Part shown: in pieces, positions 25,882 through 27,760 of the stretch
Layout: every line of letters begins with the position of its first letter
How positions within the stretch are numbered: the first letter of the stretch is position 1
From: Bacteroidota bacterium
GTDB taxonomy: Bacteria > Bacteroidota > Bacteroidia > SXHM01
Reading direction: 5' to 3'
Length of the DNA stretch: 57,212 nucleotides
NCBI GenBank assembly: GCA_947479755.1
Contig: CANKAM010000022.1
Location: forward strand, 1 to 57,212
Program-made: the position numbers and the translations under genes
The notes under the pieces: model-generated
Told to the model about the DNA's origin: nothing
The model's database searches: none
What the model saw: only the letters and a program-made list of their open reading frames with translations

Positions 25882-25910
25882 AGAGAGAATTTTAATTCTC
25901 TCTTTTTTTT
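25882..25910 (+). terminator. Factor-independent terminator after tsf
   Basis: Stem AGAGAGAAT (25882-25890), loop TTTA, complement ATTCTCTCT (25895-25903), followed by an unbroken T tract to 25910. A textbook hairpin plus U run, 22 bases after the tsf stop. Confidence 0.85.
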
Positions 25911-25941
25911 GACCTTAAATTTCCAAAACCCAAAAAACCGA

Positions 25942-26646
25942 ATGAAATACAAAAGAATACTTCTGAAACTAAGCGGTGAATCATTGATGGGCGACAAACA
26001 GTTTGGTATTGACAACAATCGTTTGGCTCAATATGCAACAGAGATAAAAGAGATTGCCGATAAAGGTGTTGAGATTGGAATTGTAATTGGCGGAGGAAAT
26101 ATTTTCAGAGGTATACAAGCAGTTGAAGGTGGGATGGATCGTGTGCAGGGTGATTTTATGGGAATGCTTGCAACAGTAATTAACAGCATGGCTTTGCAGT
26201 CTGCATTGGAGGGAAAAGGAATGCAAACGCGTTTGCTTACTGCCATAAAAATGGAAGAGATTGCAGAAACATTTATCCGCAGAAGAGCGGTGCGCCACCT
26301 TGAAAAAGGGCGTGTTGTTATTTTTGGTGCGGGAACAGGAAACCCTTACTTCACCACAGATTCAGCGGCATCATTACGCGCCATAGAAATTGAAGCGGAT
26401 GTAGTTTTAAAAGGCACCCGCGTGGATGGCATCTACTCAGCCGACCCTGAAAAAGATAAATCAGCAACCAAGTTTGACACCATTTCTTTTGATGATGTAT
26501 ATGCAAAAGGTTTGAACGTAATGGACCTTACTGCATTCACACTTTGCAAAGAAAACGAGTTGCCTATCATTGTCTTTAACATGGACAAACCCGGAACACT
26601 TTTAAAAGTGGTGGAAGGGGAGAAGGTTGGGACGCTGGTTTCTTAA
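25942..26646 (+). CDS. pyrH: UMP kinase
   Basis: A 234-residue amino-acid-kinase-fold enzyme that phosphorylates UMP to UDP in pyrimidine synthesis. Visible are [15 protein letters not shown] at the N-terminus, [16 protein letters not shown] (phosphate binding), [20 protein letters not shown], and the C-terminal [24 protein letters not shown] longer frame opens at TTG 25909 inside the tsf terminator; the ATG at 25942 gives the standard N-terminus, so I chose that. In most bacteria frr follows pyrH; here it does not, and a 339-base repeat-filled gap comes next. Confidence 0.96.
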
Positions 26647-26679
26647 TAAGAACGTTTACTTATTTACCCTCAATTTTCG

Positions 26680-26910
26680 TGTTTACCTGAAAAAGGGCAC
26701 TTCGCACTATAGAAAGGCATATTCTTTCTTTTTAAAGGTACATTCACTCTACGATACTGTACGATTATTCTACGTATTTGTATATTTATTCTATATAAAA
26801 ATAAGTCCTTTCCAAATATCTGTAACTCCTTTCCACGTAAAGGAAGCTCCTTTCCACTTATCTGTAAGTCCTTTCCACATGAAGGAAGCCAGTTTCTACA
26901 TAACTGAACG
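26680..26910 (+). repeat. Array of about eleven degenerate 21-bp tandem repeats
   Basis: This fills most of the 339-base gene-free stretch between pyrH and 26986. The clearest copies begin TCCTTTCCA at 26806, 26827, 26848 and 26869, exactly 21 bp apart, with a variant at 26890. The same register extends back, more diverged, through 26785, 26764, 26743, 26722, 26701 and 26680. Second halves fall into two kinds: a CTGTA type and an AAAGGA type. These alternate in the last five units, giving a 42-bp superperiod. In AAAGGA units the halves pair: TCCTTT (26827-26832) with AAAGGA (26839-26844). One frame is open across the array and would encode a 7-residue period with an aromatic at position 3, but this follows from 21 being a multiple of 3. 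No direct-repeat/unique-spacer pattern, so not CRISPR. Confidence 0.8.
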
Positions 26911-26914
26911 CTTA

Positions 26915-26945
26915 TTGTAGAAAATGCTGAACTTTATTACTTTTG
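26915..26945 (+). promoter_or_regulatory. Predicted promoter for the small gene at 26986
   Basis: TTG (26915-26917), a 20-base spacer, then TACTTTTG (26938-26945), matching the Bacteroidota promoter form. The -33 element begins 5 bases after the last 21-bp repeat unit. Confidence 0.55.
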
Positions 26946-26985
26946 CAGCAACAAACAGCACGTAAAACAAAAACCATTATCGGAA

Positions 26986-27174
26986 ATGAAAAAACTTACG
27001 CCCGAAGAAAAAGCCACTTTTGTTACCCGCCCCATGCAAAAACAAGGTATAGTCCGCACCATGTTAATGAACATCAAACAGGGTGAAATAATGCTGATTG
27101 AATCACACGAATGGAAGTGGAAATCTGCAACCCCCGCCTACCTATGCCGCAGAGTGGAAGAAAAAACAAAGTGA
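26986..27174 (+). CDS. Small unknown protein, possibly cut short by an in-frame TGA
   Basis: A 62-residue hypothetical protein (MKKLTPEEKATFVTRPMQKQ at the start, WKWKSATPAYLCRRVEEKTK at the end), without signal peptide or membrane segment. It stops at TGA (27172-27174). If that codon is read through, the same frame continues for 20 more codons as KFVCEKALQPKSGWLITRVE and stops at TAG (27235-27237), giving 83 codons. The continuation looks like protein, and I loosely recall small Bacteroidota proteins with such a CRR..(K)..F.C..AL..SGW.I.R ending. A CGA to TGA change would explain it. Whether the short form works is unknown. A good promoter lies 40 bases upstream. Confidence 0.5.
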   Translation: MKKLTPEEKATFVTRPMQKQGIVRTMLMNIKQGEIMLIESHEWKWKSATPAYLCRRVEEKTK

Positions 27175-27274
27175 AAATTTGTATGCGAAAAAGCATTACA
27201 ACCAAAATCGGGTTGGCTTATAACGCGGGTAGAGTAGGAGTATTACGACTGTGTATCATTGAAATTGAAACCCG

Positions 27275-27296: not shown

Positions 27297-27494
27297 ATGG
27301 AAACAGTTATAATTAACGCAGATAAAAAAGCAGACATGAGTTTATTGCTTGCTTTGGCCAAAAAAATGGGCATGAATACACGCACGCTTACCCGCGCAGA
27401 AGTTGAAGACTGGCATCTTGCCAAAAAGATTGAAGCGGGAATGAAAACAGCAGATGTAAGTCGCAAAGAAATTATGAAGGCACTTGGTAAATGA
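27297..27494 (+). CDS. Putative antitoxin of a RelE/ParE-type module
   Basis: A 65-residue protein, mostly helical and charged: METVIINADKKADMSLLLAL, then RTLTRAEVEDWHLAKKIEAG and a last helix with ADVSRKEIMKAL. The length, the short N-terminal beta strand, and the 4-base ATGA overlap with a downstream toxin-like gene mark it as the antitoxin of a type II pair; this is inferred from context more than from a named family. The frame is open back to 27111 over the interrupted small gene, but ATG 27297 follows a -7 element and gives the normal antitoxin size, so I chose it. Antitoxins of this kind usually repress their own operon. Confidence 0.7.
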   Translation: METVIINADKKADMSLLLALAKKMGMNTRTLTRAEVEDWHLAKKIEAGMKTADVSRKEIMKALGK

Positions 27495-27760
27495 AAATTG
27501 CTTTCAAAAAATCATTTCTTAAAGATTTAAAAAAACTACGCGATAAGCAACTTAAAAACTCCATTGCCAAAGCTATTGAAGATGTTGAGGCGGCAAAGGA
27601 ATTAACACAGGTGAAAAATCTGAAAAAGATGGAAGGGTATAGTTCCTTTTATCGCATTAGAATTGGTGATTACCGAATCGGATTGCAACTAATGGATAAA
27701 GAATTAATCTACTTCGTTGCCTTTGACCATCGCAAAGATATTTATACACATTTTCCATAA
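27491..27760 (+). CDS. RelE/ParE superfamily toxin
   Basis: An 89-residue protein of the RelE/ParE toxin fold. Marks are the opening FKKSFLKDLKKLRDK, the KNLKKMEGYSSFYRIRIGDYRIGLQL block (the typical L.G....YRIR.GDYRI motif), and the final strand ELIYFVAFDHRKDIYTHF. The last part resembles RelE-type mRNA interferases with a H-R-DIY end. Targets could be ribosome-bound mRNA (RelE) or gyrase (ParE); sequence alone does not decide. It overlaps the antitoxin by 4 bases. Located in the patch that separates pyrH from the next chromosomal gene, which suggests acquisition. Confidence 0.85.
   Translation: MKIAFKKSFLKDLKKLRDKQLKNSIAKAIEDVEAAKELTQVKNLKKMEGYSSFYRIRIGDYRIGLQLMDKELIYFVAFDHRKDIYTHFP

Follow-up and report, generated by a model that had tools for sequence, protein, structure and literature searches.

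A 21-bp direct-repeat array in front of an orphan gene is one of an apparently undescribed, genus-wide set of Bacteroidota arrays with conserved spacing and drifting unit sequence

Plasmid iterons are direct repeats of approximately 22 bp bound by Rep. In the operators of SARP and SARP-LAL regulators (e.g., PimR of Streptomyces), tandem direct repeats follow one another at a step of 11 bp, one helical turn, an arrangement thought to line up cooperatively binding monomers along a single side of the helix next to the promoter; losing a repeat or changing the spacing alters transcription (PMC5930380). In Beggiatoaceae, Cyanobacteria, and some Bacteroidetes, TAACTGA heptamers are repeated in many intergenic sets, which often lie shortly before start codons and show some association with gene rearrangement (PMC4679880). 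In architecture, the SARP-type direct-repeat operator is the nearest described counterpart of the array presented here.

This array lies in a stretch of 57,212 nucleotides (the window) from a Bacteroidota bacterium (assembly GCA_947479755.1, contig CANKAM010000022.1). The original prediction was of eleven 21-bp units in exact register, and a chain search permitting spacings of 18 to 24 bp indeed returned 11 units between 26680 and 26890, every step being exactly 21 bp (Table 1). The lag-21 identity was 0.63 in the strong part (26806 to 26910) versus 0.26 in dinucleotide shuffles and 0.54 versus 0.29 in the weak part (26680 to 26805), with 0 of 1,000 shuffles as high in either case. The first six units have little in common besides the register and a TTC/TCTA-like core, so the "eleven units" are five clear and six decayed ones. 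The alternation of CTGTA-like and AAAGGA-like halves, with its 42-bp superperiod, also held for 26806 to 26889, where TRF reported a period of 42 with an 88% match, and the lag-42 identity of the strong part (0.79) was above its lag-21 value.

Table 1. Array, promoter, and neighboring genes (positions are those of the window)
Feature	Position	Strand	Remarks
21-bp repeat array	26680..26910	+	11 units in register, 5 of them strong and 6 decayed; given on the sense strand of the downstream gene
Strong units (5)	26806..26910	+	TCCTTTCCA core; second halves of two alternating types; 42-bp superperiod
Bacteroidota-type promoter, TTG-N20-TACTTTTG	26915..26945	+	Promoter TTG in array register (26894 TTC + 21 = 26915)
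Family E gene	26986..27174	+	62 aa to an in-frame TGA; homologues of ~83 aa with a sense codon at the place of the TGA
Family E frame beyond the TGA (KFVCEKALQPKSGWLITRVE)	27175..27237	+	Aligns with the C-terminal part of the homologues
pyrH	25909..26646	+	Gene upstream of the array; array not found after pyrH in readable congeners
Antitoxin and ParE-like toxin genes	27297..27760	+	Antitoxin gene directly 3' of pyrH in genome G005, without array and family E gene

The expected promoter just past the array was present as well, as a good match to the Bacteroidota promoter consensus. Its TTG continues the array register in the window and at loci L283 and L286, which are homologous, so that the coincidence counts as one event; it is only suggestive of an arrangement in which sigma and the bound proteins would keep a fixed rotational position relative to each other. 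The array had been assigned to the pyrH gap, and its partner turned out to be the family E gene at 26986, not pyrH. In genome G004, a TonB-receptor gene lies directly 3' of pyrH, and the array and gene E are both absent there; in G006, the same TonB-receptor gene is preceded by the closest E gene and its decayed array, and pyrH is not adjacent. The array and gene E thus come and go together, and the array is no conserved part of pyrH control. The TGA of the window E gene is at codon 63 (27172 to 27174), where G006 has a tryptophan codon; the gene may have been broken recently, or the TGA base may be an error. A structure predicted from the single sequence with the TGA read as W had a pLDDT of 57 and was not usable, and a profile search of the PDB gave nothing significant. 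In genome G001, the repeats of the pyrH gap (L064) are of other kinds: some are TACTCACAAC-like, and CGCGAGTACTCGCG is at the center of a long, perfect inverted repeat. No 21-bp period was detectable there.

The unit TCCTTTCCA-N12 had been proposed as the mark of a possible repeat family. In this sequence form it did not recur, a search of the genome returning only the window and, in addition, a TCGTTTCCA array on contig C6; what recurred was the 21-bp register, with other unit sequences. In sampled stretches of the window's own genome (G000, 457 kb) and of a congener (G003, 340 kb), approximately 0.8 Mb in all, periods 21, 42, and 63 outnumbered all other repeat periods among lags 8 to 79. 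About 13 of the sampled period-21 arrays were non-coding and intergenic, each with a private unit sequence, and at least one listed period-21 segment per genome was coding (L071 in G000 and L210 in G003). Extrapolated by proportion, the window's genome may contain some tens of arrays. A 331-kb sample of 20 other Bacteroidia contained five period-21 segments, in two genomes, all of them runs of 7-bp units, and 50 kb of Escherichia coli contained none. No 21-bp array system was found in the open-access literature, and the window array is one case of a large, genus-wide set that is apparently undescribed. Neutral local slippage, the fallback explanation offered for an array without copies in relatives, does not suit a register that recurs in them.

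These arrays differ from the other regularly repeated systems. The TAACTGA repeats have one fixed 7-bp unit and no reported linkage to gene families (PMC4679880), whereas the units here are 21 bp long and vary by locus, and no 7-bp unit was detected in them (the lag-7 identity of 0.27 equals the background). Nor was there a sub-period of 10 or 11 bp within the unit (identity of 0.27 to 0.28 at lags 10 and 11). With CRISPR and TIGR arrays they share regularly spaced, partly conserved units, but here whole units diverge and there is no identical repeat; the Nop-domain protein (PF01798) of TIGR-Tas was absent from G000 in a search in which the controls matched.

Searches with the proteins encoded beside the first arrays revealed that the arrays go with these genes. 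When only loci with an upstream sequence of 400 bp or more were counted, 56 of 65 genes in five families (A, 11/12; B, 5/6; C, 19/25; E, 7/8; HTH_26, 14/14) had an array ahead of the start codon and no more than 300 bp from it, compared with 15 of 573 sampled genes, several of them from these same families. Fisher's test gave a P value of ~2e-56, which overstates the certainty because homologous loci are not independent. No similarity was detected between the five families, yet each showed the linkage. The six array-less C genes are mostly distant members, and all 14 HTH_26 genes detected, which are of the Cro/C1 type, carry an array. About four sampled non-coding arrays (L072, L076, L082, and L212) front none of these families. 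The families are multi-copy and scattered, and they are rare beyond the genus; in distant relatives, the array was present at L249, L272, L276, and L332 and absent at L273, L275, L278, and L280. At L249 and L268 (the latter with a weak array), it lies between a divergent HTH_26 gene and a family C-like gene, and at L202 between a divergent HTH gene and an orphan gene. Families A and E gave nothing beyond weak matches in Pfam, NCBIfam, PHROGs, and PADLOC, families B and C showed only fn3 and CarboxypepD_reg-type domains, and no DNA-binding domain was recognized in A, B, C, or E. At L066 (4776 to 20000 on contig C2 of G000), an open frame of more than 5,000 codons that runs off the stretch adjoins an array-bearing HTH_26 gene.

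The scattered multiple copies, together with the absence of the array and gene E after pyrH in G004 and G005 and their place before the TonB-receptor gene in G006, could mean that the array and its gene form a small mobile cassette, which recombines or is maintained through the array. We consider this very unlikely. Neither an integrase nor a target duplication was seen, nor, in an unsystematic inspection of the termini, a shared terminal sequence; family E was not found in collections of phages, plasmids, and viral contigs, and the unit sequences vary by locus, so one enzyme could hardly recognize them all. The recombination-site role originally suggested for the window array found no specific evidence, although array and gene move together.

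In the whole set, 648 of 666 unit spacings were exactly 21 bp. Some steps of 20, 22, 23, or 24 bp occurred in 13 of 56 arrays, and the phase is therefore kept strongly but not absolutely. Most arrays have 8 to 18 units, and nearly every locus has a different unit. The arrays were compared with their surroundings by aligning the upstream regions of homologous loci (17 alignments, of which some have a member in common and five are gap-free throughout). The arrays showed 839 substitutions and no indel of 1 to 20 bp, their gaps being one of 43 bp and five that measured exactly 21 bp, against 1,357 substitutions and 37 indels of 1 to 20 bp in the flanks (P of ~3e-8 for array versus flank). The array limits were defined by continuous phase in one partner, which biases against seeing indels there; approximately 23 small indels would be expected in the arrays, and zero is unexpected even with this expectation halved. 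The unit sequence, in contrast to the spacing, drifts: the unit consensus was common to all pairs with more than 80% protein identity, to nearly half of those with 60 to 80%, and to hardly any below 60%, where the unit similarity was near that of unrelated families while the array and its 21-bp period persisted.

Part of this behavior is that of bacterial intergenic minisatellites (VNTRs), likewise head-to-tail arrays growing by block duplication, and the arrays might be selfish or neutral products of slippage or recombination that favors a 21-bp step, surviving where intergenic DNA tolerates them. Whole units are gained and lost, as seen in the five exact 21-bp gaps between homologous arrays, and these length differences, like the 42- and 63-bp superperiods, show duplication of blocks. 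Moreover, the substitution level of the arrays (21%) is like that of the flanks (19 to 28%), some arrays lie between convergent genes, and non-coding 21-bp TTTCCA arrays occur in many phyla, though these were selected by pattern. Such an origin is nevertheless quite improbable in our estimation. It leaves the phase and the neighboring genes unconstrained, whereas here one exact period holds genome-wide, the phase is maintained with 1- to 20-bp indels nearly absent at a divergence of about 21%, and the arrays are linked to five gene families. Conserved columns, furthermore, fall in blocks (14 of 45 arrays were above the 95th percentile), and the 331 kb of other Bacteroidia held few comparable arrays, their 21-bp matches being 7-bp units.

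As 21 is divisible by 3, the arrays could also encode heptad peptides, 21 bp being seven codons. A 97-aa frame does span the window array, one frame stays open through some other arrays, and at least one sampled array (L071) is inside a real long gene. This reading is, however, largely refuted, and we give it next to no credence: stops close all six frames in 16 of the 56 arrays and all three sense frames in 20 of them, the frame and start are inconsistent, indels of 3 or 6 bp, which a coding array would tolerate, are absent, and the frame in the window matches no family.

A more serious alternative is that the array acts as RNA, transcribed as a 5' leader whose 21-nt units are sites for an RNA-binding protein or govern how the transcript is translated or how stable it is. 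The arrays of families A, B, C, and H (the HTH_26 genes) end 3 to 294 bp before the start codon. No promoter was recognized in this spacer where one was looked for (for HTH_26, in an unsystematic scan), and the arrays of these families may therefore be transcribed leaders. The sense strands are richer in A than in T (mean AT skew of +0.16; P = 6e-5), and folding is better in family A arrays than in column-permuted controls. Yet the window, like its two or three closest relatives, has its promoter after the array, which leaves the array outside that transcript, the skew is opposite in family E arrays, C-type arrays and the window array are unstructured, and there is no obvious RNA reason for an exact 21-bp phase with indel depletion. 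On balance, we regard an RNA-level role as unlikely for the set as a whole.

The idea that the window array forms a chain of small RNA hairpins was not supported: its fold z-score was approximately 0.2 relative to column-permuted controls. Hairpins as a universal property of the arrays were likewise rejected, the mean z-score of -0.85 on the sense strand being driven mainly by family A; folding was strong mainly in that family and a few others. Rfam covariance models gave no match in 26500 to 27200 at E values up to 1. Intrinsic curvature was also considered and rejected, since the arrays were no more curved than their column-permuted versions (mean percentile of 0.42).

The two-turn spacing, kept while the unit sequence changes, points to helically phased control elements. 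Our preferred, though tentative, reading is that array and gene form a pair whose upstream half, the array, regulates in cis as a helically phased, operator-like element traveling with its gene. The 21-bp tandem units would put about ten protein-binding sites on one face of the DNA, adjoining the promoter or leader of the gene, and monomers or dimers bound there would align cooperatively and control that gene. The binder may be the product of that gene or else an HTH regulator encoded in linkage with the array, and the unit sequence would turn over because constraint acts on nothing but the spacing and a core that co-evolves. The position before genes, the two-turn spacing, the blockwise conservation, the co-inheritance, and the frequent HTH neighbors fit arrays of phased binding sites. 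The earlier idea of an operator array with a two-helical-turn period was the best supported of the three roles first offered, given the dominant period of 21, the few small indels, and the specific genes fronted.

An operator of this kind would share with those of SARP regulators the direct repeats in helix register, but SARP operators have two or three heptamers with an 11-bp step, whereas the arrays here have approximately 8 to 18 units with a 21-bp step. Also, SARP operators have one defined sequence and regulator, whereas the unit here differs at nearly every locus and no SARP gene was identified; the arrays do not show the few repeats of one regulator-specific sequence typical of SARP- or PhoB-like sites. 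A promoter at and in phase with the array was located in the window, L283, and L286, and none was found near most of the A, B, C, and H arrays examined. HTH genes adjoin arrays at several loci, where they are candidate cognate regulators. With iterons (for a review, see PMC4980987), the arrays share near-two-turn tandem direct repeats beside a potentially autoregulated regulator gene; they differ in being many per genome and chromosomal, and neither a Rep gene nor any indication of a role in replication was seen.

A bolder version, which is conceivable but which we rather doubt, is that the arrays make up a genomic system new to the literature, each genome holding dozens of "array + orphan gene" pairs in which the two-turn spacing is selected and each private repeat co-evolves with a private DNA-binding partner, giving mutually orthogonal phased operators. 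If the phased-operator reading is right, the arrays would constitute a natural library of long, locus-specific, phased arrays with conserved spacing and freely drifting sequence, would make it possible to test directly how regulators and their operators diverge once duplicated, and would join several orphan gene families to one control architecture. The array linkage would also predict where to seek the function of those orphan genes.

Several individual arrays deserve mention. The array at L043 (2318 to 2590, contig C78 of G000) inverts its orientation midway, and its flanking genes are convergent. Those at L009 (4022 to 4396, contig C6 of G000) and L050 (2530 to 2827, contig C40 of G006) have a near-identical unit, and both are broken by GGGGGC-containing units with a 22-bp step; the former lies between gyrB and a peptidase-like gene, and the latter fronts a broken family C gene. 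The pattern-selected, non-coding TTTCCA arrays (L085 to L201) came from Planctomycetes, Desulfobacterota, Spirochaetes, and other phyla. Finally, L042 (contig C77 of G000) and L044 (contig C15 of G001) are approximately 98% identical over 5 kb, with arrays of equal length, in genomes listed as different species.
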